This document shows, piece by piece, positions 24,801-55,416 of a stretch of DNA of 64,000 nt. The notes under the pieces were generated by a model that searched no databases, was not told where the DNA came from, and saw only the letters and a list, made by a program, of their open reading frames with translations. The stretch lies in assembly GCA_037043015.1 (NCBI GenBank), contig CM073322.1:12907601-12971600 (forward strand), in the 5' to 3' direction. The DNA is from Bryum argenteum. Its lineage: Eukaryota; Streptophyta; Bryopsida; Bryales; Bryaceae. The translations under genes and the position numbers were made by a program. Positions within the stretch are counted from its first letter, which is position 1. Every line of letters starts with the position of its first letter.

Positions 24801-25060
24801 AGCGGCATCGATTGTTCATGTTCTTGAGACTTGCAGTTTGATCAACAGACCTTGATCTGCATCTATGGCCATGTTGTGAACGCTCGCATGTCGAAACATG
24901 AAGAGGAGATACCGGCAGATAGGAAGTAGTGTTGGGGGTGCTGATGAAAATCGTGCTGAGGTTCGAGATGGTGGTAATATATCAAGGTTGGTGGTGGCTA
25001 TATGAACATTATTGCCGAATTGCAAATTCGTTAGTTGCATGGTCCTTAATCAGTAAGTGT
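21870..25060. repeat. Diverged duplication upstream of the receptor gene
   Basis: Blocks in 21870-22900 recur in 23750-24660, such as the 'gaactaggtac' block, the 'ggtactaatttaatccacaaaatggatactgta' block (22779 and 24545) and the 'ctgactccgtcc' block (21906 and 24067). Parts of the 'tatggccatgttgtg' block occur three times. This stretch may hold the missing first exon(s) and promoter of the TIR-NB-ARC-LRR gene. I could not identify a start codon exon with confidence. Confidence 0.6.
22921..22988. repeat. 34-bp tandem duplication
   Basis: The unit beginning GAGTAGAGCACAGCACAAAC occurs twice, at 22921 and 22955, identically. A similar short tandem copy (21 bp, AACTTAAGAGTTTCGGAGCAG) lies at about 24179-24220. 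Confidence 0.85.
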
Positions 25061-25206
25061 AAATTTAGTGTCTTTGTATAACTTCTAGATAGCATAAATT
25101 CGAATTATATCCTTGGATGTGGTTCTCACTGAAGTGCACATTCCACGCGTAATTTTGCGCAATTAGATTATGTAGTTTCTGACTAACAAGTTCTTTGTTT
25201 GTGTAG

Positions 25207-31620: not shown

Positions 31621-32026
31621 AAATTCCAACAAAGATTGGAATCCTATTTCAATGTTACACTTTTTAACATATTTTCTAATATCTATCCTTAGGTCTTATC
31701 ACGAGCTACTTTTACTGAGGCATGACACGATGGAGAAGTTAAACCTTCTCTAAAGAAAGCTATTTTGATGCACTTTCTATATAAGCACTTGTCTTTTGAA
31801 AAAAATTGAATTGTACCCTCTAAGAAGCTCACCTTTGGACTTTCGTGCTCTAGATTGAAGTGTAGCGACAAACAAGAGCAACTTCAAAGTTCAAACAATC
31901 ATAAGTACCACCATAAATAACCAAATTCCATCATACTACCACCAATGCGTTGAAATGTAGTAAATGTTATCAAGATTATAGTTTTCATGATAATCTAAGC
32001 CTCATGTGTAGGAAAAACCTACGAGC
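31621..32026. other. 3' flank of the receptor gene (left part)
   Basis: Non-coding sequence that matches 55240-55674 downstream of the second LRR copy. It ends in CCTACGAGC (32018-32026), the target duplication of the transposon that follows. Confidence 0.7.
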
Positions 32027-32611: not shown

Positions 32612-35600
32612 TCAGTTTTTGTTGGAAACGAAGGTATCAAAAGAACTTGCATCTTCAGAATGCAGGCTGTACATTTTTGTAGCGGAATTATACGTCAACG
32701 CTACACTTGATATAATGGACTCAACGTCCACCCAATTAGAGTCACTGACATCATACCTGAATTTGAGCCGACCTGAGCCCCTCGAATAATAGTTCAAGTA
32801 AATCTGGATGCCAGACTCCGAAGCTCCTTTCTTCCCGGTTGACGATAGCAGATTCATCAAATCAATTGGATGTTTGAGAATACCATAACCTCGTCCTTTG
32901 CGTCTTCTGATCCTTTGCACCCGGCCTATCCACCAGGATCCCTCCTCCACCGCTTGGGATACTCTGACTGCTGCAACACCTCGCGACTGTTTTCCCCTGG
33001 TTCGTTTTTGAGCAGTGGTCACAGTGGAGGAACGTTGTGGTAATCCTGCACCTAAGAAGTAGATGCCACAGTCGCTACCACACCCTATCAGCATCTTCGA
33101 ATTCGATGAGGCGGCACTTAGGTAGTCGTCAGCGTTGTTGAAAAATATTGAATTCTTCACTCGTGTCAATCGGTCCTTCGAAAGGAATGGGTTCGCATTC
33201 AATTGAGACACTAAAGTAGATTTATAGATGGTTTTGCCAGCGTACATGACATAGGGCAGTATCTTCACGCTCACTGCAGGTGTTCTGATCTGCTCCTCAG
33301 ACTCGTTTAGGAGCTCAGTGATCACATCTCGGGTCTCCTGCTCAACAGTACAGGGCAATCCGTCTTGCTCATCGTCTTGATCATTCTCCGGCGCTATTTC
33401 CTTATCGCCTTCCTCGTCAGATTCCACTTCTTTACGGTCGGGCAGGGTTGTTATCTCATGCATTACCTCCGAGTCGCCATCCTCACCTTCAACTGGTTTC
33501 TTGTTCGGCACAAAAGCAAAGTGCTTCGGGTCTGCCAACTCACAGGTCCAAGGACTGCTGAACCACCTTGAACTTTGAGCATTTGCACCAAGACGAGGAC
33601 CCATATTGAGAGCCCTGAGAAGACGTTGAGCCTCTTTCAACCCTTCTTTCAGTGCTGCAATCACATCATCATTAGTAGAAATGAGGGAATAGTTCCCCAA
33701 GTCGCATGGAGACTCCTCTGGTGCCAACGGATGCAAATCAGCCCAGACGTTCGTCATTTTGTTATGGACCCTATTAAATTTCAGACCATTAGCCCCATAC
33801 TCAACCGCCGCTAATCTGTTTACTGTATTAGCTGTATTTACAAGCTCGTGAAAATCATACGCACGTTCTAAGCCAACCATTCCCCCTATGTTACTGAAAA
33901 AGATCTTGCATAAATCGCGGCCTGTAAGATGCAACGGCACAGGGGGGTGAGAGTATTTATCACGAAAATGACAGATTAGTAACACTACAAAATTACAGGA
34001 CAATTGCACATCAATAAATGACTGCTGACTAATGAAGTTCTCCTTCAGAGAGAAAGAAGCTGTATTGCCAAGTACTGAATGATCTCCGTATTTAAACCAC
34101 AACTTCCATAATCTAAAGAAGTAAGAGACTTTTGATGCTAATACTAATCTAGAACGGAGATCCAATGACGGGGATGCAAAAATATCTATGTAATCTCCCA
34201 CAACAGAGAGGTAGTACTCTGTACCAATAGTCCGCTCTCGTTGCACATTACCTGCCAGCCGCACCTTCGCCAAATTGTCCGTCACTTTTTTCTGGCAAAG
34301 TCTTTGAGCAGACGCCCAGTTCTGGCGATCGGTGCGGTCAATGTCACCTTGTCGCAGCCCATGCTCATCTTGAGTAAACTTATTGTAAATCGCTCCGACA
34401 TGCTCTAGCATACAGACATCACCACCAAGCATCAATGTTCGCCCTCCTTGATCAATCGGGTTTATGAGTTTTTTGCCGTTGTGGATGTAATCCTGGTCAT
34501 GCAGACCAAATGCATCTCCATTATTGTCGACGCCAGCAGAGAATAGCCATCCCTCCCAGTCTAGTTTCAGTCTCGCTCCCCCGGTCTCCTTGTAATCTGC
34601 CAACATCAACTGCCGCCTGCGACTATCTCCGTCGCTTGCATGTTCAACGATGGGGCCAACTTCCCCTTTGCAATCTTTCTCCCATAGCCGCTCAATTGTA
34701 GACCACTGGGCCCGCACCCACGCTGCATTGAAACAATTGCACGTACACGAAACGACGAGGACTAGACGGGGCAGTTTGTTGTGTAGAGGATTAACCACTA
34801 CCACCCTGGCAAAACCGCCAACTTTGTTAGTACGGAACCCTTCGACTACTCAGCTATAGCCTTCTTCTCTAGATCCGACAAGTAGCTTATAGTCAGAAAC
34901 ACACACATGATTCTTTTTGGGCCCGCAGAATCCGGCCAAAGAGTCCCACTTCTGCTCATACGCGACTCTGGATTTCACTTTTGTTTCATCTTCCGCTAGA
35001 ATCACAGGGACTGGCCCTGTAATCCCGTGGACTCTCTTCGCATCCGCATAAATCTGAGCAACGGCCTTAAAAATCTAAGAGTGCTCACCGGGGACAAACT
35101 GAACCCCTTTTCTACAATCTCGTTTCACTGTGTTGTATCCAGGTCCAGCATAATTCAGCGCAAATAAGTCACACATTTGTTTCCCTCCGTACATCTTCAT
35201 GGCCTGTGCAAAAGCCTTACTATTATCACTAAATCGGTGAGCAAAATTCTTTCGATTAAGATTCGCTACAAAGTCCTTCATGAAGTCCCATAACGCTGGC
35301 TTACTTCCGAAGACCCCAGACCGGTGAGCAGCAAGAATGTTACTGCAAAATTTCATTAGATCGTGTTCATCAGATGCTAATTTTGCCGACTCTTTCAACG
35401 TCGGCCTCTTTACTTTAAGCTGCACTATCCGAGCCTTTGCTGCCCAATGCAACGACCTCTCTCTCCTGAATTTCTTCGACAACTGACGACTATGCGAATT
35501 CACCTCTAGCAGGTGAAGGTACCCTACTCGGCGACCTCACCTTGTCGATCTCGTGCCCCTCTTCTCAACTGCTCGATCCTCACGAAGTACCCGCATCCTA

Positions 35601-37082
35601 AAGTCATCCTCTGAGGGAATAGACGCGCACTTCGTACATGTTAGATTCTCAAATCCATCATCAGAAGCAGAGATCCGCAAACAATTTCTATGCCTAAAAG
35701 CACCCTCAATACTCAACAAACCCCCTTCCAGCATTACATCACCACGCAAACAAGGTTCAGCAAACCAATTCTTTCCTGGGTGAGTGTCATTGATAAGTGC
35801 ACGGATATTGTAGGGCTTACCTCCACACAAACACGATGGACCTCTAAATCCCGAGCAAATGTATCTAAGCCCAGCCCCTCTATCCCATGAAGTAAAGTCA
35901 CCTATCTGAGATCCTTCACCGCTGTGAGGGAACCAGGAATGTAGATTGGTTTGACTCCGGCTCCCTGAAAATCCAGCAGTACGACTCGGTCTCCCTCGCT
36001 TCCCTGTGGACAATGGCACTCCTAGTGTCTTTCTTTGGGCTTTCTCATGCAGCTCCTTGTGCTTCGAACCGGCAGCATGGGCAGTCAACGTATGTTCAAG
36101 ATTTCTCTTCGGCGGACACAATTGCAAGAACTCGTTGCAGCTTACGCACTTCACCTTCGTCCAAAAACACTTCACCTGAGTCGCCAACGGATTCCCCACC
36201 ACTTCGAAACAGGGCTGAACCATCCCCTCCAAAGCATTCACTTTCTTCACTATCTCGACGCCATCTGCTATGAGCTTCGCATGATCTTCAAGAGTAATAA
36301 TCACTCCTTTTCCAAGTCTACCCGCTTCTGATCAAGGATGGTGTTCGAATGGAACATTGTGTCTCTTGCACCAATTCCTATCATGTGCCGTGCTCCCTAG
36401 ATGGTTGCCCTTGAAATTGTTGAAGAGATTCTGGATAGCATGACTTGTGTGATCCCCGCTAATTCCTCCGTGATGCTTGTTACATTCGAGGCAGTAGATC
36501 TTCACGACCCCCACGCCATTGTGATCAAAAGATTTTAGCTTCCAATTGTGGTCTTCCACTGAAATTCCCTTCAACTTCCATCTCACGTTCTCCTCCTCCA
36601 AGATGTACTTGTCCATTTATCTCCGCAAAAATTAAGGTGGATTGCAAACAAATCTCCGGCACAACAGGCGGTGCCTCTACTGCACTCAATCCAGTAACCC
36701 TGGACGTCGATGGAATAACGCCAACAAATCCCTCGACTGGTTCAGTCGTCCCCTCCAACTCCACACTGTTCGAAGGCAGCCCCCCTACACTCTCAATGTC
36801 GTCCTTGTCGATGCGCTGGCGCTTGAAACCTGGACCGCCTTCACCTTCAGTTGGGATAAAATGCACAACTGCTGCAATACTGTTCAAACTCTCCAACTTC
36901 ACGTTGATACGGCAACTGTCTTCAATATCCCAGAATTAGAACTTCCACGGCAGAATCCCCACGGACTCCAACCTCTCCTGAAGACTGCTGTAAGACGCAC
37001 CATCGTCAGCCCAAACAGGCCCAATAAACCTTGGTTCCGCGTCTTCGTGGTCAAGAGCGTAAATCTTGATCCTTAACGCCAT
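32612..37082 (-). pseudogene. Transposase-like protein of the 32,027-38,392 element, broken
   Basis: From the ATG at 37082 (MALRIKIYALDHED) to the stop at 32612 most of the sequence reads as one long protein. An N-terminal part has WKLKSF and a C..C..H..H zinc-finger-like segment (IYCLECNKHHGG). A BED-like CVSCNEFLQLC segment follows, then FCSNILAAHRSG and GGKQMCDLFALNY, then an AEDETKVK motif (about 35000) and a SDGDSRRR motif (about 34636), the likely catalytic acids. Further on come LTGRDLCKIFFSNIGGM and a Glu/Asp-rich tail. Five stops interrupt it, at about 36933 (TAA), 36334 (TGA), 35539 (TGA), 35077 (TAG) and 34840 (TGA), plus one frame change near 36615. The catalytic assignments are inference. 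Confidence 0.75.
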
Positions 37083-39603: not shown

Positions 39604-39954
39604 CACTAATAGAAAAGCATGTCAATTCTGACTAGTTGCGAATGACTATGCTGTCAATTCTCACTCTGGCTAGTCAAATGCGTTTTTAGATCGAAAAACC
39701 TTAGTCAGCTACGAGGGTAGTAATAATTTTAGTCATACTTTAGTCATATTGTAGTCATGTTTGTAGTCATACGACTATTCGTAGTCAGATTTTTTAGGCA
39801 CCTCGATGATTTTACGGTTGGGGAACGCCGAGAACGTGGTTATTTACGGTCGGGCAGGCATATGACTAGAGTAGTCATCTTCTCGACTACGGTTTCGGGC
39901 AGCGACATGACTACGCATGATTTTCTTGTAGTCATCTGACTACCACAATGGCTT

Positions 39955-41010
39955 TTTTTATTTTGGTTCCGAGCACTCATAAGACTAATTTCGTGATTAC
40001 ACTAAATTCCCACCTGTCTTATGACTACTGTAGTCATCCCTTAGTCAGCACATCCGAATGTTTTATTTCGTTTTGTACCATTTATAAGACTAATTTACTA
40101 TGTACACTAAATTCACACCTGCCTTCTGACTACCGTAGTCATAACTTAGTCATCAGGGTAGTTTTATAAGAAGTGGTTTTGACCACCGATAAGACTAATT
40201 TAGTGTCTACACTAAATTCCCACCTACCTTATGACTGCTGTAGTCAGAACTTAGTCAAAGGGCTTTTTTTTTTTTTTTTTTTTTTTTTTTGCCCCGACCA
40301 CTCATAAGACTAATTTGTTGTCTACACTAAATTTCCACCTACCTTATGACTGTCGTAGTCAGAACTTGGTCAAAAGGGGGTTTTTTTTTTTTTTTTTTTT
40401 AATCATTTTACATCTCCGCTAATAGGACTAATTTATTGTCTACACTAAATTCCTACCTGCCTTATGACTGCCGTAGTCAGAACTTAGTCAAAAGGCAGTT
40501 ATTTTTAATTTTTTTAGATTTTGTCATCTCCGCTAATAAGATTAATTTTTTTTCTACACTAAATTCCTACCTTCCTTATGACTGTCGTAGTCGGAACTTA
40601 GTCAAAAGGCAGTTAGTTGTTTTTTTTTTTAAATTTTTTTTTCATCTCCGCTAATAAGACTAATTTATTGTCTACACTAAATTCCTACCTGCCTTATGAC
40701 TGTTGTAGTCAGAACTTATTCAAAAGGGAGTTTTTTTTTAAATTATTATTATTTTACATCTCCGCTAATAAGACTAATTTATTTTCTACACTAAATTCCT
40801 ACCTGCCTTATGACTGTCGTAGTCAGAACTGAGTCAAAAGGCAGTTAGATTTTTTTAAAATTTTTATTTATTTTATTTATTTATTTTTTATTTTTACATC
40901 TCCGCCAATAAAACTAATTTATTGTCCACACTAAATTCTTACCTGTCTTATGACTACGGTACTCATAATTTAGTTAACCCAAGGGTTTTTTTATGCAGTC
41001 ACTGGTTCAA
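39955..41010. repeat. Subterminal repeat array of the CACTA element
   Basis: About nine units with a period near 105-125 bp. Each has 'taagactaattt', then 'ctacactaaattcc', then 'ccttatgactg..gtagtca', then 'acttagtca', separated by T-rich spacers of variable length. Palindromes of the type ATGACTAC..GTAGTCAT fit the subterminal sites bound by TNPA-like proteins in En/Spm elements. Confidence 0.9.
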
Positions 41011-41146
41011 CAAATATGACTATAATTAGCAGTAAGTCGTTCACACAACAGAAATCAACATGTAGCCGATTCTCATCAGGTACTCGTCCACACTATCTCT
41101 CACACTACGCGTACTACATGACCGTATATACCGACAACGCTTCTTA

Positions 41147-41881
41147 TCACTTCTCTGCATCCTCCTCGGAATCCAGCAAGTTCTGGTGGGCTTCCTCTGT
41201 GGTCAATCTTCTAGCAGTGCCGTGATTATGAGTTTGTACTTCTGCTTCCACGAGTGTGTACTGTGGTCTGAGGCCCTCATACTCTTCGTCTCTACCTAAC
41301 CGTAGACTCTGCAATTCCGGTCTTCCCGTAGCTGTTGACTCCACTCTTGCACCACGTGGCTGTCGGCGTAAAATGACCTTCCATCCGCTGTTCTCTTCCT
41401 CATCGCAGAAAAATACTTGTTGTACGTGAAGGGGAATTGCGAAGGAGTCCGCTGAGTATGGAATCAACCGATCAAATCTGAACAATGTGAATCCATATTC
41501 GTCGGTTTTCATTGTAGCACGAGCTCCCCTTCTATTTGCTTGTGCCCACGTACAGTACAACACCACAACTTCAAATTTCCCCTAGTCCACGCTGAGAATT
41601 TCGTCCACCCACCCCACGTACTCCAGATTTGTTGTCCTCAGATTGCGGTCATGCGAACTAGCGCGACAAGATTGGAGGAACGTAGCTGCTACTGCGCTGT
41701 CACATGTGGCCATATCAGCTTCTATTCCACGTACACGGATATGATTTCCATATGCGTACATCGACTTGTATCCCTTTGCCTGGACTGAAAGGGGGGTCAG
41801 CAACGCTTGGATGTCCGCGGAGACATCTGTCCCTGTCGCCATATCGTTGGATACAGCATCGTGAAACCACTGATTCAATTG
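41147..41881 (-). pseudogene. CACTA transposase, C-terminal DUF4216-like part
   Basis: The exon starts after a CACCAG acceptor at 41881 (QLNQWFHDAVSNDM). It reads through a DUF4216-like segment (YGNHIRVRGIEADMATCDSAV, VGWVDEILSVD, then GKFEVVVLYCTWA and IPLHVQQVFFCDEE), the usual end of plant CACTA TNP2 proteins. One in-frame TAG (41582-41584) sits where relatives have Tyr before GKF. The C-terminus is rich in Glu and Arg. Confidence 0.75.
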
Positions 41882-42189
41882 CTGGTGCTGTATGTCGGTG
41901 GGGTAATCTACGCGTTTCTTCCTCTCGTCGCTTCATTTCACATGCGTAACGCCTGTAGCAAGCCAGCACTTCGAATTAGCCTGCGTTATTTCAAATTAGC
42001 CTGTTTTTACAATGACCACTATTTGTAGGCCCTTACAGATGGCCTATGACTATGCGTAGTCATTCCGCAGCGGGAGAATGACTATATGCAGACATACTCT
42101 TAGCCGACGCATGCCCACATTCCAAAATAAAACTAGGGGTTAATTCGACTACGCATGGATGTTCCCCTTCAAGTAATGACTACGGGTAG

Positions 42190-43173
42190 TCATCTTTTGC
42201 ACGATATCCTGTACGGAAATGTTTCCGAATTGTGAGCACAAGTTCCATGCAACTCCAAGAGAGGATTTGGTGCATACTCTCTGTACTCTTCAATGATTTC
42301 AGCGTTGTTCATCACGAAAACATGGATCCATTGCTGCAGTTCCGAAGAGAGTAAGCGCCGTCTCCCGTTCCCCTCTAGAACTTCATCATTCATAGTAGGC
42401 TCCTCTTTGTCGTCCCATACACGCCGTGTCGTTATGCTGCAGTTCTTCATGTACTCCGTGCAAAATCCGAGCGTCTCCTCCATGATATACCCTCGTGCCA
42501 TCGAGCCCTCCGGTTTCGCTCGTTGCCGTACATATCCCTTTAAGGTTTTGAGATACAGTTCCACGGGGTACATCCAGCGTGTATGCACCGGGCCACAAAT
42601 GGCTAATTGTTGCACTAGGTGGATTGGAAGATGTGACATGACATCAAAAAATGACGGTGGAAATACTTTTTCCATCATGCACATGGTCACAGCTGTTTCC
42701 TCCACCAAATCGGACATTGTTGACGGATCCACAGACTTCTCACATAGTCGCACAAACACCCTGCATATCCGAATGATGGCTGCCCGAACATCTTTTGTTA
42801 GTAATGTCCGGAGACACAAAGGGAGGACCTGTTGCATCATGATGTGTTAGTCATGTGACTTAAGCCCACGAAGGTCTCCATCAGGGGTGATCCTCTTCGA
42901 TAACTGCCCCACGTAATGGCTGGGAGTCTTTAAGTTCCGAATAGTGTTGATGAATGTCGCCTTCTCCACCTTCGTAAGAACGTAAGGAGCAGCCGGTAGT
43001 ACGATGGTATCACTCCCGACGTGTTGAGGGTGCAGTTCGGGGCGTATATTGGCCTCCTTCATGTCTAGACGGACTTTGAGTGTGTCTTTCAATCCCCATA
43101 TTGTCCTCATGATGTTTTCGCAGAGATTCTTTTCGCAGTGCATGGGATCCAACACATGCCTGATTATGAGAGT
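42190..43173 (-). pseudogene. CACTA transposase, TNP2 core end and DUF4218 part
   Basis: The exon starts after a GCAG acceptor at 43173. It holds IIRHVLDPMHCEKNLCENI, the conserved TNP2 'RH.LD.MH.EKN' block. It continues through LKSHD to a DUF4218-like part (PPSFFDVMSHLPIHLVQQL, GPVHTRWMYPVELYLKTLKGYV, ARPEGSMARGY-like text). One in-frame TAA (42847-42849) lies in the LKSHD-HIMMQQ motif where relatives usually have Tyr or Cys. Confidence 0.82.
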
Positions 43174-43470
43174 CTGCGATGAAGAACACATCGTATCTCA
43201 AAACATAACTAATATTACTAACATGCATGTTCCAGAGTAAGACCATTGCTAGTCGTGATTTTGCTGAGAATGAGGAGTCCTACTCATGCGTTCTCCGCAT
43301 ATGACTGCTGTTAGTCCTATGGTCTCATGGTATGACTACTGTTAGTCACAATCTATCAGTAGATGACAACGGGTAGTCGTTGTGTTCTCAAAATCTGACT
43401 ACTCTACGAAAAAACACTTTCATATCATGAGTAGCACCAGAAAGGTGGTTTACAGCGTAAGCATGACTAC

Positions 43471-43990
43471 CTGCCAATATGAAAGATTGTAAAGAACTGA
43501 TAGCCTCTTCACTCCGCTCTGGTGCACTGGATCACTCTCGCCTCCTTCTCTATTTTCATCACTGGCTGCTAGCCACCCTCCCTACCTTTAGCATGGCGCA
43601 CAATATCTCGTCCATTGAGAGACCTTGGGGGTGCTCTTATTTCCTCCGTGCCATCAAATGCTCTTTTCAGTCGTCGATACGGATGATTCCTCTGCAAGTA
43701 CCTGCGATGTCCGAGGTAAACATTCTTTCCTAGTGAATCTGATCGACGAGTACTAACGTTAGGGCCGCATTCAAGACAGCCTTTGTACCCCTTTGTCACT
43801 TGCCCGGAAACAAGACCGTATGCTGGGTAATCGTGGATGCACCACATCAACATTGCTCTAAGTGTGAAATTGGTGTTGTGAGTGTCGGCCGAGACATCCA
43901 CGGCATTTACACCCTCCCAGAGTTGCTGCAGCTCTTCGATGAGAGGGGCCAGGTACACATCTATATTCGATGACGTCACACTCTCCTTCC
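43471..43990 (-). pseudogene. CACTA transposase, TNP2 middle part
   Basis: It reads GKESVTSSNIDVYLAPLIEELQ, LWEGVNAVDVSAD and LRAMLMWCIHDYPAYGLVSGQVTKGYKGCLEC, all diagnostic TNP2 blocks. After about 43586 the exon structure is unclear. A segment ending VKRLSVLYNLSYWQ before a GT donor at 43470 is evidently coding, but the link to it is in another frame or needs a splice I could not place. Confidence 0.75.
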
Positions 43991-44256
43991 CTGGAATGAG
44001 GAAAGCAAGCATGATAAACTTTAGTGAAAGAGAAATCCTGCGGCTTGAGAAAATTGATAATGTTTGTCCACCGCTTTAAGAACAAGTATAACGTTCGTCC
44101 TGCAGTGTTAGAATCCTACTGCGGTTGGTCTTGTTATTTTTAGATATAACTAATGTTGGTTTTATTATAGCCATGGCAGAATGTTTGACTTCACCATACG
44201 TCTGACTGCAGAAATGTAAATAACAGCGTGGTCGGATTCACATGACAGCAATTTAC

Positions 44257-45172
44257 CTGGGATGATGAGAGCTAGCATTGGAAAGAACCGTTTTGTTACT
44301 AGCCAAGGAGGTAGGTTGTAATTTAAAAGTATCACTGGCCACGTTGAGTGGCTGAGTGACTGGTTTGAAAAAGGATTCACTCCATCTCTGGCCAGAGCTA
44401 ATCGTACATTCCTCTCGTCAACTGCGAATTCCGGATACAAAGCGTTGATGTGTTTCCAAGCTTTTGAGTCCGGTACACACTCCATATTGCCATGTATGTC
44501 TTTCCGTGTTGTGTGCCACTTGTTCAACTCGGCTATCTCCTTACATCGATACATTCGCAGTAGTGGAGGTATAAGTGGAAAGTGCCTCAAAATCTTCACA
44601 GGCCGCCCACTATTCTCCGATGCGTATCGCTGTTGTCTACATTTTGGGCACGTCAACGCCTCGGCCAACTCCCCTCGGAACAAACAACAACCGTTTTGGC
44701 AAGCATGGATTAGCTTGTAATTCAACCCTAGTGACCGTATGAGTTTATTCCCTTTCAAGTGCGACTTGGGAAGTTTGTTGCCCTTTGGAAGAAGTTTGCT
44801 GATAACGTTCAATAGTTCATCTGCACACGTGTTTGATACACCGTGTACTGTGAAACAATTGAAAATTAAGAGCACTGCCACCAATAGCTTCGTCTCACAC
44901 CCTTCGTAAAGTGGAACACTTGATATGCGAACGAAGTCGTCTGGGTATATGTCAGGGAGGTTGTCGTCATCAACAGCATCGTCAATTTCGTCCTCATCCG
45001 CAGAGTCGTCATCAGGTGGAGGGACACAATCGTATCTGCCGAGGCACTCCGTGATCATCCTGGCAACGTCGAAATGTTCTGAAGCAGTTGGCATTGTTGT
45101 GTTGCCCTCGTGAGTTTCGTTTGGTTCATGAAGGTCTTCACAATCATCGTCACTCTCGCATGTAGCAGTAGA
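44257..45172 (-). CDS. CACTA transposase, TNP2 N-terminal exon
   Basis: The exon begins after a TTGTGCAG acceptor (STATCESDDDCEDL). It has an acidic lead, then TNP2 blocks: LLNVISKLLPKGNKLPKS, IRSLGLNYKLIHACQNGCCLF, CPKCRQQRY, VKILRHFPLIPPLLRMY, DSKAWKHINALYPEFA and RLALARDGVNPFSNQS. It ends at a GT donor after CCAG (LALIIPG), which joins in phase to 43990. No stop lies inside this exon. Confidence 0.85.
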
Positions 45173-45667
45173 CTGCACAATAAAATTTTAGACACTTGAA
45201 TGAGTTTGTGAGGCATACATGTATCCATGTAAACAGGAGCTACTGCTGTTCGGAACAGTTGTAATGGTCAAACGCCATGGATTTGAGTACAGGAAATGTT
45301 CCCATCACTTAGGAACGCGACTTATATTTTATCGGTTTGGGCAAAACATACCCGCGTCATACATGATAAACAACTGACTCATGCTAGTCGGCAAACGGTG
45401 GACTTGTCTAAGGAAATATGACTAACATTAGTCATATGTATGAAAAGGAGGACTGCAAGTAGTCATCGACGAGAAAAGTGGTGGTTGCACAGTTAGATCA
45501 CGAACATGACCACTGATGCGGTCATTGGTCATCTGTACAAAGCATATGAGTGCATTCAGTCACTCAGGTGTGATCAATATTAGAAGTCATCAAACGATGT
45601 ATAAGAGTACAAATTCCTGTGGTGGTACCCTATTCATTAACAACCTCTGAAAGACATATCAGTTTAC

Positions 45668-46255
45668 AGGGTAAGATGTGAAAAGTTCCTCCCCCACTTC
45701 AATGTCACGCGCTGCAACAGTCATGATATACCCCCAAGTATACGGATTCCATGGGGTAGGCAAGGATACATATTCCCAAATCACATTCTGTATGTGCTCT
45801 CGTCCAATTGAACTGTTTATAAATCCTGCTACATTTCCTTTCAACACATCTCCATCGAGGTACGTGTTTTTCTTCATGCGTATTACATATTTCAGAAATC
45901 GCGGGTCCTGCTCACACTTTTGAAGGACCTCGGCCTCTGAGAAAACATTCCCAACAAAGGGCAATAACTCTTCACCCAATTTTGCTGGCTCCATAGCATA
46001 CAGGCCCCATCCCATGTGCGGATGTGTTGACACTCTCACCTGCCACTTCCTCTTCCAGAATGTGAAGACGTGGAGCTTTGGGATGGGGCCTATGCTCAAT
46101 TTTTCATTGTCTCCATCTGTGCCACTAATATGACGAGTCTCTTTGTTATTGTGAGACAAAGTACCTTGACCGGTCGTTGTAAGCGGGAGAGGATTCGAAA
46201 TTATGAAATGTAATGCAGCAATTGCTGCGGCCAATACAACAGGTCTTTGTATTTC
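45668..46255 (-). CDS. SET-domain exon inside the CACTA transposase gene
   Basis: SET domains transfer methyl groups from S-adenosylmethionine to lysines, classically in histones. This 196-codon exon reads GWGLYAMEPAKLGEELLPFVG (SET start), Y.IRMKKNTYLDGD, GNVAGFINSSIGREHIQN (the GN..RFINHS..PN position, here NSS instead of NHS) and ARDIEVGEELFTSYP (the GEEL..Y motif with the catalytic Tyr position). It has an AG acceptor at 46256-46257 and a possible GT donor just after TAC CCT at 45668. Both are in phase with the TAD exon before and the TNP2 exon after. If the donor is not used the protein ends YPVN and stop at 45659. The SET call is confident; catalytic activity is not shown. Confidence 0.83.
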
Positions 46256-46346
46256 CTACACGAACATATTAAAAGAGTAAGGCAATGATTATGGATCTCT
46301 ACTAATGTGACACCAACATGATCAAAAACAGTCATGAGTACCGTAC

Positions 46347-46544
46347 CAGAATGGATGTCTTGAAAATTGGATCGCGCTTGTACTTCCGTAGGTGTTTACG
46401 GATGGTGCCTCTAAAAACCACTCTTCCACCCATGCATTTCTTACATGGGCAACCGTAACTTTGTAGACCGCGGAGGTCTGCTTCTTTCTCTTCGATGTCC
46501 CACAATTGCAAGTGTAGGAGATCTTCGCGCGATGTTCGATCCAT
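46347..46544 (-). CDS. Transposase-associated domain exon of the CACTA element
   Basis: It starts at the ATG at 46544 and encodes 66 residues including LRGLQSYGCPCKKCMGG and a basic RKHLRKYKRD segment. This is the usual layout of the transposase-associated domain (zinc-binding C.C..C) at the start of plant CACTA transposases. It ends before a GT donor (CTG then GTACGG) and its 91-bp intron ends TTCGTGTAG. The join to the SET exon is phase 0. Confidence 0.8.
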
Positions 46545-47851
46545 AATTACTTGCAATCTCCACCTACACACACATCTCACTTTGAAACACCGACAGCCGA
46601 AAGAGGTGCCTCCAGTCACCGTAGTCTGACCGTCTCGTGAGATTCATGAACATGGTAGTTTAGTTCAAATGGCATTATTTCACGTGTCATTCTGCCATAT
46701 CAAAATTCGTAAATTGCTTATAAAATCATCATCAAACTTTCTAATATTGATCACCAATGTAAATGGATTGTAATACTGAAATATTGTAGCGTATGAGCAC
46801 CCTACGTATCACATGTATTTGGTGGCTTTATCTTGATTTTAACCCTCTCTGAAAGTGCCATTGTTACAAGGTTGAAACTTAGATATGAGAAAAACTGGGT
46901 GGAGCGAAGCTAGCGGTTCAGCAATCGAGAAGACAGACACTGACCAGGAAATGGAAAAGGAGTAGCCTCGATATTAGGAAGAACCAATTTCACATCGGCA
47001 AGCGCGACATTGTTGATTCCGAGAATCAAACTGACTGCAGCAGCTCTAGTTCCGGTCCACAGAAAAGACCGACGTGACTGAAACTTGCTCTCATCTGCGC
47101 ATCTGCTCACCATGCAGTTTTCAGATCCCCACAAAACGGCAAAGCATATTTACCGTCAAAGGTTCAGATCGATGAATACTGACCCTAGTTACAAAAACTC
47201 TTCAGAAACAATTCGGTCCAGTTCATACTGAAAAAATCAACAGTACTTAAAAAATTCAGTGATTATGGTGTAAAGTTTCTCTGAATCTCCCTACTTAGCA
47301 ATTCGATTTTAGAAATGGGATCACGAAATGCGATCAGAGAAATGCGATCAGAGAAAGGGATGAGGAATGAACGCAAAACTCGGAACACACAACTCTCTAC
47401 CAATGTTTGTAACCAGGGCCCCATGTGCATTCAAATCTGTCTCACCCGGGCATTACTGAGAAAAAAAATTTCCTTCAGATCTACTGTGATGGGTATGATG
47501 ACATCCAATATCTACATGTATCCGCAAAATAATTGAGAAAATCTCAAAAAAGATATGACTACGACTAGTCATGAGTTTGAATCGACTGACTACCAAATGG
47601 CGGCTATGAGCATTTATTGCACCTAGCCGCCAGTAATTAAACTTCATCTCCTCCGAAATTAGCACTCAATTGCACAGCCTCTCCACTCGCACGGTGCTTT
47701 ACCTCCCCACTCTCTCTCAATCAAATGATGAATTCATCATTGCTCTCCACCCACATACCTCGAAGGACCGATTTCGAAAAAATGGCCTCCACTCACTTTC
47801 GTGTTCTCCTCTGCTTAGTTTCTGTTGTTTCTCAGGGTCTTCTCTGTAGCA
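46545..47851. promoter_or_regulatory. Divergent promoter region of the CACTA element
   Basis: It lies between the leftward transposase start (46544) and the rightward start (47852), so it must hold both promoters. A 15-bp tandem copy 'gaaatgcgatcagag' lies at about 47330-47358. TGACTA/TAGTCA motifs occur at 47557-47592. No TATA box could be fixed. Confidence 0.5.
46910..47134 (-). other. Possible captured exon with a thylakoid-type targeting signal
   Basis: The minus strand reads FQSRRSFLWTGTRAAAVS then LILGINNVALAD, followed by VKLVLPNIEATPFPFPG and a GT donor-like GTCAGT. A twin Arg, a hydrophobic run and ALAD look like the thylakoid-lumen transfer part of a nuclear-encoded plastid protein. 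I do not recognise the protein. It may be a fragment of a host gene captured by the CACTA element, or chance. Confidence 0.3.
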
Positions 47852-49451
47852 ATGGCGCCTAGGAAGCCTGCAGTTCTTCCTTCACCAACTTCGCATGAGC
47901 TTCAGAGGACTGAGAGTGAGGTGGCAGCATCGCTAAAAGAGTCGGAGAAGGAGTTCGACGAGGCGGAGGAAGGATCAGAGAGTAGCTCGGAGGAAGGATC
48001 GGAGAAGGCAGCCTCGGAGGAAGGATCAGACGACGAGGACGAGGCGAAGGAGCAATCGGGGGAGGAGTCCGAAGACGCTACTTCAGCGGAGGGGGAGGCA
48101 TCCGAGGGAGAGGCGACCTCATCGGAGGAGGAGGCAGCAAGCGGGTCGAAGGAGAAGGCAGCAAGCGGGTCGGAGGAGAAGGCAGCAAGCGGGTCGGAGG
48201 AGAAGGCAGCAAGCGGGTCGGAGGAGAAGGCAGCAAGCGGGTCGGAGGAGAAGCATCCGGAGGAGAAGGCAGCAAGCGGGTTGGAGGACGACGAGGCGGA
48301 GGAGGAGAAGGCAGCAAGCGGGTCGGAGGACGACGAGGCGGAGGAGGACGAACTGCCGAAGGCAGCAAGCGGGTCGGAGGAGAAGCGTCCGGAGGAGAAG
48401 GCAGCAAGCGGGTCAGAGGAGGACGAGGCGGAGGAGGTCCAAACGCCACCCACACGGCGTCCGCGCGCGCGATCGGCAACGAAGAAGAAGGAGGTCGGCC
48501 CTGGCGGGCTGCTTCCCGTCAGGCACTATCGCTCCAAAAGTCTGCTGCCGTGAAAGCAGAAGGTTCTATCGCTCTCCAGCGACAACGACTCTGCACCGAA
48601 GCGTAGGAAAGTGCGTGGGAAGACGAAGAAGGAGAAGGGGCCCTCTCCAAACCCGTACGAGATCGCCCGCGATAAGAATGTCGAGTTCAACCAGCGTGTT
48701 CTTAAGTCGTTGGGTATTCAAAATCTGACTACGGCTGCCGAAATCACCACATCTCCCCCGAAGACTACTTCCCCGTACGTATGAGCTGTATGTAGATGTA
48801 GATTCTTAGTCAACATTAAATAGTACTATTTGCCTAATTCCAGGAACAATGACCACTGAATATAGTGCCTCGGTAGAAAAGATAATGAGGATGGTAGCAA
48901 ATTTACCTGACAATTGCGTAGCAGAGGTTTTTCAAGGAATCGGTAGAATGCCACAAATCACTAGTGTAGCCTTGCATGAGATGGCTAAAGTATTAACGGA
49001 AATTTTTCAAGAGTCCAGGGAGGCTGTGAGTCCACAGAGGAGGTCCAATCGCGTCACATCGAAGCAGCCGGCAAGTACTGCTCGAAGGAATCGGAAGTCC
49101 AAGAAGGACGCGTCCGAAACCGAGTCTGAAAAAGAGGAGACGGAGGCAGACTTTCTCTCGGAGGACGAGGCGGCGTCATCTGAGGAGGACAAGGCGTCAT
49201 CTGACTCTTACGTGGACGAGAAGGCAAGTTCGCAGCACCGCAAGACAGCGCCCTTAAAACCTAAGGTTCGTAACATGGGGCCAAATGTGGATGAGGAAAT
49301 GAGGGCAGTAAAGAAAGACATACATGTTTTTAAGATTCAGTTCATGCTCCATGAAATGCTAGAAGTGTCCGTTGCTATCCAGAAAAAGGCCGCTCAACTG
49401 CAGGAGGAATGTCAGCTTGTGTTGGAGGATATCACAAAATCAGATTTTTGA
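47852..49451 (+). CDS. Acidic repeat protein of the CACTA element (two coding blocks)
   Basis: From the ATG at 47852 (MAPRKPAVLPSP) the frame runs through a Glu/Ser-rich region with an eight-residue repeat (KAASGSEE, 24 bp) to an in-frame TGA at 48551-48553. The frame then continues (APKRRKVRGKTKKEKG, NLS-like) to a donor at about 48775. A second block, 48849-49451, encodes SASVEKIMRMVANLPDN, a Ser/Glu/Lys-rich middle and a helical end. I could not join the two blocks in frame. Its function is unknown; the position suggests the accessory (TNPA-side) gene. Confidence 0.5.
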
Positions 49452-50059
49452 AATTGTTTAAGTTGTTAAGTCTGAACATGCCAGCTTTGCAACCTTTTGA
49501 CTCAAAGAACTAACATTAGACCAAATCCCTGAAAACCCGACTATCACTACTCAGATTTCCTAACTATTTTGACTTCAGCAGAATCCGTGTTTATAATAAC
49601 TCCGTGACAAGGCTTTACTAACGTGTCTTTACGAGCGGACATTGTATAGTCACGCTAGACTTGTTTTACGTCGTGTCTATCTTTAGTCATCTACCCTGCC
49701 AACGTGACTATTGAGAGCAATATCCCTTTAAATATCTGACTACCTCTAGTCATCACTCTCTCTATATGACTTTACTTAGTCATATACTAACCATTTTAAA
49801 CTCGAATCAGTCCTGTGAGGCCACACATATGACTATATATAGTCATAGAGACGCGTTGAATTACTACACACAGTCATCTCCACGAAGCATCTGACTAGAT
49901 ATAGGCATTTAGCATGTCTTAAGAGGTAGTATACGAACTGCCTCTAGAACTTGAGACAGTCGCATCCGCAGCTGGGGTGGCAACCATTGCGAAGCCTTCT
50001 ATGGCCATGGCAGAATGTTTGCCATTGCGCAGACGCCATTACTGATTATCTGCGGCGAG

Positions 50060-52280
50060 ATGCAGAAATCCAGCGCCAAGGGTCCTCCTCCCCCGAAACC
50101 CGCACCTACACAGGCGCTGAACAACGCAGCACCGCATCCAGCCCCTTCGAAACGCAAATCGAAGGTACATCTACATGTCTATCCTGCATTCAGTTCACTC
50201 CAATTTTTCTAATCTAGAATGTGACTAAGTGTATTATTCCTTTTACAAAAACTAACTAATGCTAGTCATGCTCTACCAGAAAAGGGTGAAGTCCACAGGC
50301 CCCATCCACTGGGAGGTGACGCGGAGAAGGCATACAAAATCTCCGAAGACGTTCAAGGTTCCAAAGAGCGGCAGCAAGAAAAAAATTCGTGACGATCCAC
50401 TTGCTGCAACTAAGAAGATGAGTCGGGCATCATTGTTTTCTGATGACGGGGAGGAGCACAACTGGTTGGAGCCTGTACCACACTTTCCGCCGCCATCGTC
50501 ATCCAATGTATCCAATCGGTCTTCATTAGACTTTGACTCCAAAGATGAGGACCCCGACATGGTAGCACTGGCCATTGCGCAGAAGATCAAGAAGCTGAAG
50601 GCTAAGCAGAAAGCAGTCCTCATCGGTAAGCGACCGAAGGCCAGTTCGCTGGACCGCAAGAAGAGGCGGGCAGCAGAGCGAGCTTCTGAGGAGGAGGCAC
50701 GCGAACGAGAGGACCATGGTGGCCGTCGCTACCTAGTGGAGGTGGACATGAGGGGCATGCCTTGCGGTCAGCACCGGAAGAAATGGATGGATTGCCTGCG
50801 AGGCCATTCCCAGCATGTGGACTTCTCAGTCGACAACTACAACCATCACAGCACCCGGATGCTACTTGCCATTAAGAAAAAGGTGGACTCCACCTTCGAT
50901 TACGAGGGAGGTCTTGGGTATGTCACGGAGGAGTCTTTTCACCAAGTATTGAGGTCTCAATTGAAGACAAAGCGATATGAATTGAAGAAATTATTGCTTA
51001 AGGGGACGGGCAAGCCACAACACATAGCTAGTGAGCATTGGGTCAACCTCTCCATGATGATTGCAGAAGAGGGAAAGATCAAGCAAGCGCAGACGCTGAA
51101 GGGAAATCGTGCGGCTTTGAAGAAGGCGGCCTACTCGGAGACTAAGGCTCCCGAATTGACTGACCAGATGGGAAGCATCTGCAGACATCGCTCTTCATCT
51201 CCGAAGCACTCAAAGGTGGCGCAGCAAAGTAACCCCGACATCGAGACACGCATAGAGGGTATGGAGGCAAACCTCAAAATGATCTTAGAACATTTGAAGG
51301 TTGCAGGTGTTGCATCTGCAGCTACTCCACTTCTACAACAGGGACCCAGTGACATGCACACTCTAGCACCGCTGCACCGGACGCGGAGAAGGTATTTGCA
51401 TGACTATTTGTAGTGTTATGGATAGTCATCCGTAGTCATCCGTAGTACTAAGTAGTCATAGTCACAGTAGTCTAATCTTACCATTGAATTTTGTGAAGAA
51501 GAAGTAACAAAGGTTGGACTTATCTCATTTCTTTCTGATTGCCATAACATGGTTCGTGTGCTTGGGCGGTGTGGGGGAATAGAAGCATGTCGCAGGGGAG
51601 GACACACAAATGGTAGAAGATATGAACCGGGCCGACAAGGAGGACGACACCGCAGTGCCATGTCTCATGTTGCTGACTACACAACAACCGCAGGAACGAA
51701 ATAACTATGAGGTAAACTTTTGAGATATAACTAATCGTAGTCACACACGCACACTGAATGACAATTTTCAGTCATCAACTTCAAGTAGTATGACTAAATT
51801 AGTTTACATGTCCCTCCCCCCCTCTTTCAATATCCAACATTCAATGTGGTTATTTTCCACCAATATGAGCAGGAGTCTGGAGACAGTGACGACGTCCAAG
51901 AGACTCAAGGAAAAAAAGGGAAGGAAGTGGTAGCAGACGGCACTGCCAATTCCCCGCAGAAGACTCGTCCAGCTGCTGAGAAGAGGAAGAGGGCTACCAA
52001 GGTTCAAAAGCTAATCGAAACTAGCGGGGGTGAGCAGAAGACAAAGCGTTCAGAGAAAGAGAAGGTAGTTTACACAAGGGCGGAGAAGGCGTCCGCTGCT
52101 GCGCAACAGGTGGTGACGACAGAGAAGGGGTCCGATGTTGGCCCGGAGAAACAGCCACGACAGAAGGGGAGTAAGCCCAAGAGAGTCAAGAACCCAGCTA
52201 TTGTGGCGAAAGACAGTACCGAGGCGGAGATGTGGAAAGTCCTGCCCCATGACGAGAAGAGCACACTAGTGGTAATGAGG
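50060..52280 (+). CDS. TNPA/Transposase_24-like protein, 3' truncated
   Basis: Exon 50060-50164 (MQKSSAKGPPPPKPAP) joins in phase to 50280-51413. That exon holds RYLVEVDMRGMPCGQHRKKWMDCLRG, MLLAIKKKVDSTFDYEGGLG, LKTKRYELKKLLLKGTGKP and a NRAALKKAAYSETKAPEL segment like the plant Transposase_24 (PF03004) family of En/Spm elements. It also has DIETRIEGMEANLKMILEHL, a probable coiled coil. Further coding exons follow at about 51600-51710 (QMVEDMNRADKEDD) and from 51876 (ESGDSDDVQETQGKKGKE). The last runs into LRR sequence at about 52271-52300 and so lacks its end. The shift from 51413 to the next exon is not resolved. Confidence 0.62.
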
Positions 52281-54170
52281 TTTGCATTTGTCAAACTAGG
52301 ACAATGACTTCCATACTTGACTTCAATTTGAGTTCAAGCAAATTACAAGTGCTAAACTTGAAAGAGCTTGTAGAGTTGCCAAATTTTCAAAGGCTTAATC
52401 AGTTGAAGGAGTTATGGATTGATGAGTGCAACAAAATTAAGTACGTGCCCAGCTTGGATAGTTTGGCTGCTTTAGAGATATTTTCAGCTAATGGTTGCAC
52501 CAAGATTGTAGAGTTGGCCAATTTAAGAAGGCTAACTCAGTTGAAGGAGTTATGGATTAACAAGTGCAAGAAGATAAAGTGCATATCGGGCTTGGATAGC
52601 TTGGTTGCTTTAGAGATAATTTGAGCTAATGGTTGCACAGAAATTGTAGAGTTGGCAAATTTAGGAAGACTAACTCAGTTAAAGGACTTATGGATTGAGG
52701 ATTGCAATCAGATTAAGTGCATCCCGGGCTTAGATAGTTTGGTTGATTTGGAGATATTTTCAGCTATTGGTTGCACTGAGATAGTAAAGTTGGCCAATCT
52801 AGGAAGGCTAACTCAGTTGAAAGAGTTATGGATTAATGTATGCAACAAGATTACGTGCGTGTCGGGCTTGGATAGCTTGGTTGCTCTGGAGATGTTTTCA
52901 GCCAAAGGTTGCACCGAGATTCTAGAGTTGGCCAATCTAAAAAAGCTAACTCAATTGAAGGAATTATGGATTGATGACTGCAACAAGATTAAGTGTGTGC
53001 TTGGGTTGGATAGCTTGGTTGCTTTGAAGATATTTTCAGCTAATGATTGCAGCGAGATTGTAGAGTTGGCCAATCTAAGAAGGCTAACTCAATTGAAGGA
53101 GCTATGGATTGATGAGTGCAAAAAGATCAAGTGTGTGTCGGGCTTCGATAGTTTGGTTGCTTTGGAGATATTCTCAGTACATGGTTGCATCGAGATTGAA
53201 GAGTTGGCCAATTTGCAAAGGCTGACGCAGTTGAAGCAGTTATAGATTAATGGGTGCAACAAGATTAAGTGTGTGCCAGGCTTGAATAGCTTGATTGCTT
53301 TGGAGATATTTTCAGCTAGTAGTTGCAGTAAGATTGTAGAGTTGGCCAATCTAGGAAGGCTAATTGAGTTAAAGGAGTTATGGATTGATGAGTGCAAAAA
53401 GATCAAGTGTGTGTCGGGCTTGGATAGCTTGGTTGCTTTGGAGATATTTTCAGCAAATGGTTGCATCGAGATTGAAGAGTTGGCCAATTTGCAAAGGCTT
53501 ACGCAGTTGAAGGTGTTATCGATAAAAAAGTGCAACAAGATTAAGTGCGTACCGGGCTTAGATAGCTTGGTTGCTTTGGAGATATTTTTAGCTAATGGTT
53601 GTACGGAGATTGTAGAGTTAACCAATATGCAAAGGCTAACTCAGTTGAAGGTGTTATCGATAAATGAGTGCAAGAAGATTAAGTGCGTACTGGGCTTGGA
53701 TAGCTTGGTTGCTTTGGAGATATTTTCTGCTAGTGGTTGCATTGAGATTGTTGAGTTGGCCAATTTGCAAAGGCTCACGCAGTTGAAGAAGTTATCAATA
53801 AAAAAGTGCAAGAAGATTAAGTGTGTGCTGGGCTTGGATAGTTTGGTTGCTTTGGAGATATTCTCAGCACATGGTTGCATCGAGATTGAAGAGTTGGCCA
53901 ATTTGCAAAGGCTCACGCAGTTGAAGAAGTTATGGATTAATGGGTGCAAAAAAATTAAGTGCGTGTCGGGCTTGGATAGCTTGGTTGCTTTGTAGATATT
54001 TTCAGCTAGTGGTTGTAGCGAGATTGAAGAGTTGGCCAATTTGCAAAGGTTGACGCAGCTGAAGAAGTTATTGATTAATGGGTGCAACAAGATTAAGTGT
54101 GTGTCGGGCCTGAATAGCTTGGTTGCTTCACAGATATTTTCACTTAGTCATTGGCAAGAGCCTATAGAGG
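52280..54170 (+). pseudogene. Second LRR copy (truncated receptor pseudogene)
   Basis: Similarity to the first receptor begins at the codons for T-M-T-S (52301 here, about 27808 there), possibly a few codons earlier, and runs through about 13 of the 138-bp LRR double units. The frame is kept throughout but is cut by TGA at 52622, TAG at 53243 and TAG at 53993. TIR and NB-ARC exons are absent; CACTA sequence lies directly upstream. Units are more diverged from one another than in the first copy. Confidence 0.88.
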
Positions 54171-55416
54171 GTTGACTCTTCTGAGGTTAATTGAGTTTAA
54201 GGTTGTATATATTTCCAAATGCAGTTGGACAAAATGCATGGTTGTCCTTAATAGATTGGTTGGTTTGGGAAAGTTATTCGTTCATGGTTGCATAGAAATT
54301 TTAAAGTATTTCAATTTATTGAATCTTTCTTAAATGAAATTGTTATATATTAATAGGTGCAGCTAGATAAACATTTTGTTGGGCTTGGATATCATGGTTG
54401 CTCTAGAGACATTTATAGCTTGGAGTTGCAAAGTGATTGTAGTGTTGACCACAAATTTTACTTAGTTGAAGGAGTCATGTATTGATAGATGGGACGAGAT
54501 TAAGTTTGTGTGAGGCTTGGATAACATGGTTGTTTTGAGGATATTTTTAGCTTCTAGTTGCAAAGAGAGTGTACAGTTGCCCTATGCCCCTGTTTACAAT
54601 AGTTTACTTTATTGTGGAATCTTAGCTTGATGCATTAAGATTAATCTTGTGCCGAACTTAATTGACTTGGTTGCTTGGAAGAGATTTTGAATTAATGGCG
54701 ATTGATTGTGAAGATAATTAACTATCAAGATTTTTTATTGTAAAGTTGATCAATCTTTTTTAATTGATTGCGAAGATTTTTGATAGTAAAGTTGGCCAAT
54801 CTTCTCTAACTGGCTTGGTTGAAGTCTCTTTATATTTATGCGTGTAAGTATTTGAGTTTGTTTTGGATTTGAATGACTTTTTAGTTCCAAAGTAAAATTT
54901 GCTGATGGTTGCTAGTTTACTTTCAATAAAAGTTCCCTGAATTGTCAAATTCAGAAATTGCCTAATGTAGATTTGTCAATCAATGAAATACCAATTCCCT
55001 GGAAATTTTACGGATTTATTTATGCAACAAGATATCTAAGCGTGACATAAAATCTATCTTGGTTGTTTTACTAGCATTTGAAACTTGTGATTGTGAAATC
55101 ATTCTAATGTACAAAGCCAGAAGAAAGCTTACTTTTCACAAGTAAAACAATAGAACATGTCTCAATGGTCAATCAATCACCATGTTCACAAAATCGATTC
55201 AAATTGCCAACTACAAAACGTATTTTAGAGTTGATGTATTATTTTATATCATGACTTGGAGAAATTCCAACAAAAATTGGAATTCTATTTCAACGTTATA
55301 CTTTTTAACATATTTTCTAATATTTGTCCTTAGGTCTTATCACAAGCTACTTTTGTTGAGGCATGACACAATAAAGAAGTTCTATATAAGTAACTGTCTT
55401 TTGGAAAAAAAATAAG

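Follow-up and report, generated by a model that had tools for sequence, protein, structure and literature searches.

Transposons are usually the targets of histone methylation by their hosts. Why would the transposase gene of a plant transposon itself contain an exon for a SET methyltransferase-like domain? The question is raised by a 64,000-nucleotide stretch of the Bryum argenteum genome (contig CM073322.1, positions 12,907,601 to 12,971,600 of the forward strand; hereafter the window), for which a sequence-only reading had proposed that a CACTA transposase gene contains a SET exon between its TAD and TNP2 exons, that the three exons form a single open frame and that the primate SETMAR gene is the closest precedent. 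The first of these proposals holds, with the order of the exons kept in many insertions and in several old lineages, the second is doubtful and the third has to be revised.

A SET exon inside a CACTA transposase gene

In the window, the three exons lie on the minus strand, in the order TAD-SET-TNP2 and at the coordinates originally assigned to them. The TAD-like first exon (46347..46544) comprises 66 codons from the ATG and encodes the zinc-finger-like half of TAD (CPCxxC...H); it is followed by a phase 0 intron with GT..TAG borders (46256..46346) and by the SET exon (45659..46255), 198 codons and a TGA stop at 45659-45661, in which the conserved core extends from residue 56 (GPIPKL) to Tyr195. 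The SET assignment is upheld by a significant match to PF00856 over 45668-46255 (5.2e-10; 40.1 bits, cut-off 22.4), with scores of 31.9-43.4 bits in four other lineages, and the TNP2 assignment by the match of PF02992 to TNP2 exon 1 (44257..45172; 4.2e-28). The TAD assignment stands only in part: a portion of the PF13963 profile does match the window exon, but at 0.0019, below the cut-off, as are the scores of all five copies compared with this profile, and the TAD of one copy (L031) is better matched by the U-box profile PF04564 (22.9 bits, cut-off 21.4). Further along the same strand follow TNP2 exon 2 (43569..43990, its acceptor taken from the sequence; PF02992, 2.8e-44 for the ORF 43569-44075), the DUF4218 part (42190..43197; PF13960, 7.9e-39 for the ORF 42190-42846) and the DUF4216 part (41147..41932; PF13952, 4.2e-6 for the ORF 41147-41581, below the cut-off), which is the usual CACTA layout.

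The window copy is not intact: there are two nonsense codons, one in the DUF4218 part (42847-42849) and one in the DUF4216 part (41582-41584), each site being open in all 16 other copies that can be read there, and the 5' part is lost, similarity to the element ending at 52296. Divergent from the transposase gene, a second gene region on the plus strand (47819..52307) contains ORFs at 47819-48553, 48810-49451, 50256-51413 and 51798-52307, none of which matches a Pfam family above the cut-off; this region is common to the window and L009/L039 as far as 52296. At the opposite end, a subterminal region (39770..41009) contains ~105-140 bp tandem repeats and TGACTAnnnTAGTCA-type palindromes, and the 3' terminus (39604..39632), set at 39604 by comparing copies, reads CACTAATAG.. 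on the plus strand, in agreement with the CACTA ends of the other copies. Palindromes of the TGACTAnnnTAGTCA type are found not only in the tandem repeats near the 3' end but are scattered through the element (39770-51743). The 5' truncation may be due to recombination at an LRR array.

The remainder of the window has features of its own. ORFs with TIR, weak NB-ARC and LRR-repeat matches occupy 25187-29854 and 52364-54182, the second LRR array (138-bp period) starting at 52364, 68 bp beyond the lost 5' part, and an NPH3 domain is also matched; NPH3, TIR and the weak NB-ARC match point to a land plant. Long ORFs on the minus strand at 32612-34849 (745 aa) and 35537-36331 (264 aa) have no Pfam match at E 0.01. 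GC skew is strongly positive (0.20-0.42) over 22000-32000, a segment that overlaps the LRR gene.

Comparison of copies defines the mobile unit. The 5' end of the element, CACTACTAGAAAAACGTGTCAATTCTGACC, was derived from the upstream flanks of copies; the 5' terminus reads CACTACTAGAAAA.. in L037, L038 and L039, and the 3' terminus of the window copy, like that of the 10 copies aligned with it, reads ..TTAGTG. The terminal inverted repeats thus begin with CACTA, and the 3-bp target duplication matches in all three elements for which both ends are available. One of these, reconstructed from neighbouring stretches of a single contig (L039 and L009), is 14,473 bp long, with CACTA ends and the target duplication TTT; the other two (L037 with L019, 6,562 bp, GCA; L038 with L020, 6,997 bp, CTT) are derivatives that keep the SET region and are devoid of TAD, TNP2 and DUF4218. 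Elements bounded by both ends and target duplications contain SET, and therefore SET travels with the element. SET-only derivatives number five (L019-L022 and L025), with both ends known in two; L019 and L025 share 98-99.6% identity in three pieces, each of 0.8-1.0 kb, and 86-93% in the 3' part.

How general is this arrangement within the genome? A search of all 258.8 Mb (25 contigs) with the SET protein gave at least 92 matches, from 112 candidates scored, that merge into at least 72 loci. The window and 28 further loci (29 in total, L036 being covered over 4.6 kb) were surveyed for exon order, and TAD, SET and TNP2 follow each other in this order in 21 of the 29. Two others have TAD and SET without TNP2 (L027, L036), one has SET and TNP2 without TAD (L028), and in the five SET-only derivatives SET is accompanied by neither; TAD homologues are accordingly present in 23/29 loci. 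The approach from the transposase side, a PF02992 scan in which the best 150 of 596 candidates were scored, leads to the same exon order: a SET match lies 1.2-2.0 kb upstream on the same strand of 21 of these 150 TNP2 matches, each of the eight best among them, and the control, downstream or on the opposite strand within 6 kb, gave a SET match at none of the 150. The sequence-only reading would have been abandoned had no other copy carried the SET exon; other copies do carry it. A single-copy artefact or a chance ORF is ruled out by the copy number, the exon order, the 0/150 control and the signs of selection described below. No SET match accompanies the other 129 of the best 150 TNP2 matches (of 596), and therefore SET is dispensable for transposition, and CACTA elements of both kinds coexist in the genome. 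Contig C1, which makes up 44.1 of the 258.8 Mb, accounts for 68/150 TNP2 matches and 32/72 SET loci; it is a repeat-rich chromosome, perhaps the sex chromosome. Among viral contigs, 65 pattern matches included no relatives.

Lineages of the SET exon and selection

The SET exons fall into five lineages, namely the window clade, L023, L029/L030, L031-L034 and L035/L036, which are 41-65% identical to each other. Trees were built from 13 loci for TNP2 (L036 absent), 12 for SET and 13 for TAD. The SET and TNP2 trees agree on the terminal groups (window clade with L023, L029 with L030, and L031-L034), with low support for the deep branches; supports around L043, a relative without SET, are likewise low (0.39-0.77). 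Insertion of SET as an unrelated later event is ruled out by the splice sites common to the lineages and by the matching tree groups.

Synonymous sites are saturated between most lineages, and among the 10 copies chosen for the selected dN/dS comparisons, the window clade and L023 form the sole unsaturated pair between lineages. For this pair, represented by the window copy, the SET exon shows dS of 1.00, dN of 0.27 and dN/dS of 0.27 (bootstrap 0.17-0.41), with 0.18 in the core and 0.50 in the linker. The core DNA is 77.5% identical, while the introns, at 46% (TAD-SET) and 44% identity (SET-TNP2; 45173..45658 in the window, minus strand, from the SET stop to the TNP2 acceptor), are not alignable any more. 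Similar ratios were obtained for SET within two other lineages (L029-L030, 0.27, interval 0.12-0.57; L031-L033, 0.22, interval 0.11-0.59), and between the window copy and L011 the core has dN of 0.00 at dS of 0.09. Other close pairs present a different picture: the intervals include 1 for window-L015 (0.70) and L035-L036 (0.71), no constraint is seen for window-L009 (1.42) and window-L018 (1.08), and several close pairs have a linker dN/dS above 1. In the wider dN/dS sets, limited to loci with one matching piece over more than 80% of the length (22/29 for SET), the window clade averages 0.55 for SET (55 pairs), with means of 0.44 in TNP2 exon 1 and 0.28 in TAD, as expected for copies that decay after insertion. 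Purifying selection kept SET while the lineages diverged; the SET exon is part of an old CACTA (En/Spm) transposon lineage, and we hold it to be almost certain that it is a component of the element under selection.

Could this SET exon be nothing more than a passenger, captured by chance and devoid of function? The decay of recent copies and the broken SET frames in three of the five SET-only derivatives (L020, L021 and L022) are what such a history would leave behind, but the retention of SET by all five lineages and the low dN/dS of the window-L023 core, found where the introns have already reached saturation, make it highly improbable.

A second dispersed SET family, SUVH-like, is present in the same genome. 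The two copies examined, L040 (C3:24115341) and L041 (C6:14743137), each combine a pre-SET-like stretch, below the cut-off, with SET, and L041 has a convergent neighbour ORF that matches nothing in Pfam or the PDB and has at least 130 scored relatives (355 candidates). In a PF00856 scan in which the best 150 of 330 candidates were scored, 78 of the 150 matches lie within 6 kb of a relative of this ORF, all 78 in convergent orientation at a median of 1,480 bp; conversely, 78 of the 130 relatives scored are paired with SET. From its sequence arrangement, this family is probably another transposon type with a histone-methyltransferase-like gene. Descent of the CACTA SET from it is unsupported, the identity being 25% over 122 residues to the one copy compared, and the SUVH-like family having the pre-SET-like stretch, below the cut-off.

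Splicing and the predicted products of the gene

The 5' side of the SET exon is the better defined of the two. The TAD donor GT, which in the window directly follows codon 66, and the SET acceptor TAG are present in all 23 loci with TAD, that is, in all five lineages (the L031 acceptor and both L032 sites being counted after correction of an alignment offset); the TAD frame itself is broken by indels in L014, L017 and L032. In the window, the first Met of the SET exon is residue 81, inside the core, and therefore this exon needs the upstream TAD exon. An early Met is present in the SET exons of L023 and L035, so the requirement can be claimed for the window clade alone. Accordingly, a SET gene with its own start is unlikely in the window and the matter is less clear in L023 and L035.

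The 3' side, compared in 14 of the 29 loci, bears on the single TAD-SET-TNP2 frame originally proposed, in which the transposase itself would carry SET and mark chromatin at insertion or donor sites. Such a fusion protein is compatible with the window clade, where YP/GTAAAC (the slash marks the proposed junction) provides a phase-0 GT, the 588 nt of the SET exon up to that site are divisible by 3, and the TNP2 acceptor likewise has phase 0; phase-0 GTs exist in L029/L030, L031-L033 (ahead of the SET stop) and L035 as well. The proposed donor, however, coincides with a Val codon (GTA in the window clade, GTG in L029/L030, GTT in L035) that is replaced by a Leu codon, CTG, in L023 and L031-L033, and in L023 no GT was found ahead of the SET stop. 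The flanks of the site are poor in the window clade and L029/L030 and fair in L035 (agg/GTTGGG). Moreover, every readable lineage (the window clade, L023, L029/L030, L031-L033, L035) has an in-frame stop 3-16 residues past the last SET Tyr, the frames ending in YPVN, YDLNSAPI, YHVNQ, YSLQQGNI(D/G)KRVNVMKD and YRVGK; the exceptions are L017, which runs on past the stop site, and L018, which stops before the Tyr, and the end is unreadable in L034 and L036.

The TNP2 acceptor is GTGCAG in the window clade and L023, apart from GTGCAA in L026 and a deletion in L013. The window clade, L023, L032 and L043 have a clear acceptor in phase 0; in L031 a stop comes after it, and in L029, L030 and L035 no such acceptor was identified. 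Two relatives without SET illustrate how the gene might dispense with the exon. The more distant one, L042, encodes TAD together with TNP2 in one frame of 656 aa, and in L043 (63% identical in TAD and 57% in the TNP2 exon) the TAD donor is the same and a 94-nt intron leads to a TNP2 acceptor in phase 0, sites that would splice TAD directly onto TNP2. An in-frame TGA precedes the donor of L043 by 10 codons in TAD; L043 is therefore a decayed witness for the direct splice, and our estimate for a separate TAD-SET product was lowered because of this stop. The single frame is thus made doubtful by the unconserved SET donor, the stops behind SET and the direct succession of TAD and TNP2 in relatives without SET, and we consider a fusion protein rather improbable. 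The same three observations make it probable that SET serves as an alternative terminal exon, which would give a separate TAD-SET product of ~264 aa.

Possible role of the SET protein

In an alignment of 12 of the 29 loci (L032 being frame-shifted in its N-terminal part), the lineages retain the core motifs GWG, GNVxGFINSS, PW and G-E/D-E-L as well as the Tyr, with GxG and Tyr preserved at the level of lineages. The replacement of NHS by NSS, noticed in the window from the start, is borne out by the family: among 28 readable copies, 24 have NSS, three NNS and one KSS, and none has NHS. Because NHS is absent from all 28, its loss is a family trait rather than the decay of one copy. Loss of the NHS His is harmful in some well-studied SET enzymes, and PRDM9 is active without NHS. 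In a PDB search with a profile of 12 copies, the best matches, which cover the first part of SET up to residue 148, were H3K4-specific enzymes (2.8e-6), ASH1L (4.3e-5), SETD2 and NSD2; no SUV39-type structure was found at E<=0.01. A single-sequence search also brings up EZH2 (0.037), the SUV39-class EHMT2 (0.08) and a SETMAR chain (E 0.98). AlphaFold, given the window SET as a single sequence, returned no usable model (mean pLDDT 33.9). Judged by its motifs, the protein has about an even chance of being an active methyltransferase.

A scenario can be built on these observations. By alternative splicing, as suggested by the gene structure, one gene would yield two products, the TAD-SET protein of ~264 aa that ends at the stop directly after SET and a TAD-TNP2 transposase from which the SET exon is skipped. 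TAD, the zinc-finger-like part common to the transposase, would bring SET to the element's own DNA, where we expect TAD-SET because the transposase shares this part; candidate sites are the palindromic subterminal repeats and the TGACTA-type palindromes near the element end. There, SET, a relative of the H3K4-type, ASH1L, SETD2 and NSD enzymes, might methylate or bind histones and counter silencing, such that an H3K4/H3K36-class domain at the element would favour expression over silencing and the element would be expressed and mobile. The anti-silencing role taken separately is a tentative suggestion; the model as a whole, namely a selected SET exon, an alternative TAD-SET product and self-targeted anti-silencing, falls only slightly short of an even chance. 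More speculative still, and in our opinion doubtful, is the broadest version, in which a CACTA lineage turned a captured SET into an alternatively spliced, self-targeted histone methyltransferase used against silencing and the second, SUVH-like repeat family makes this a general strategy in the plant.

Two other fates of the SET protein have to be weighed. SET might no longer be a methyltransferase but a histone- or SAM-binding adaptor, or else the TAD-SET protein might, via the common TAD, compete with the transposase in truncated form. The lack of NHS in all 28 readable copies and the predicted combination of TAD with no DDE domain would suit such roles; nevertheless, the constrained core, in which GxG, G-E/D-E-L, the Tyr and the Asn that precedes SS are retained, together with the existence of active SET/PR domains without NHS such as PRDM9, leaves this explanation unlikely, albeit a serious contender. 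Alternatively, SET could lay down a repressive or self-limiting mark that lessens the damage to the host. En/Spm is known to regulate itself through element proteins, and EHMT2 and EZH2 are among the weak single-sequence matches, but the nearest solved relatives of the profile are H3K4-type, ASH1L, SETD2 and NSD rather than SUV39, a link that is weak either way, and we regard such a mark as quite unlikely. An element lineage has retained, under selection, a SET module closest to the H3K4/H3K36 class, linked to a domain that its transposase also contains; the anti-silencing model, if true, would mean that a plant transposon edits chromatin in its own favour. A single small protein would then suffice to test how old CACTA families escape silencing, and it would provide a natural histone methyltransferase targeted by sequence.

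Which parts of this model have precedents? In maize En/Spm, two proteins, tnpA and tnpD, are produced from one gene by alternative splicing, and the two-product splicing proposed here resembles this arrangement, with the difference that En/Spm is not known to contain SET. The VANDAL elements belong to the MuDR superfamily and their anti-silencing proteins are not known to be SET proteins, so that the SET-carrying CACTA element differs from them in both respects. The likeness lies in the proposed role, an element protein that counters the silencing of its own element, and the VANDAL anti-silencing proteins are named as such in a passage of PMC12730594.

Closer counterparts in terms of the enzyme are HarbingerS, a clade of Harbinger transposons that encode a SET lysine methyltransferase, and MuDR families of Phytophthora that carry SET (Kojima and Jurka 2014, as cited in PMC12730594). 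As described in the citing passages, these are DNA transposons with their own SET gene, like the element analysed here, but belong to other superfamilies and hosts, whereas here the transposon is a TNP2/CACTA element of a land plant and SET is an exon inside the transposase gene; the element is not a HarbingerS, its transposase being matched by PF02992, with CACTA ends, and not of the Harbinger type. With such SET genes already in print, SETMAR is not the closest precedent. A passage of PMC8616336 presents SETMAR as a primate host gene in which a SET gene was fused to a Tc1-mariner transposase; SET and transposase sequence are combined in one gene in both cases, yet SETMAR is a host gene, and here we deal with a mobile, multi-copy TNP2 element that probably makes no fusion protein. 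Assignment to the SETMAR type is ruled out, the transposase being TNP2 and not mariner and the fusion not supported. Fungal transposons, EnSpm among them, carry TET/JBP genes according to a passage of PMC12730594, which again are enzymes acting on epigenetic marks, albeit on DNA methylation and in fungi, unlike the SET of the CACTA element. Given the HarbingerS, MuDR, TET/JBP and SETMAR precedents in these passages, transposons that encode a chromatin enzyme of their own are not new. Searches of the open-licence PMC literature (Repbase and most subscription papers lie outside it) brought up no CACTA element whose transposase gene contains a SET exon. Finally, the Pack-CACTA elements of Arabidopsis, as characterized in a passage of PMC8616336, are CACTA elements that take up host DNA, and in this the SET-carrying elements are alike; Pack-CACTA are non-autonomous carriers, whereas the lineage described here has kept a single captured module, which forms an exon of the transposase gene.
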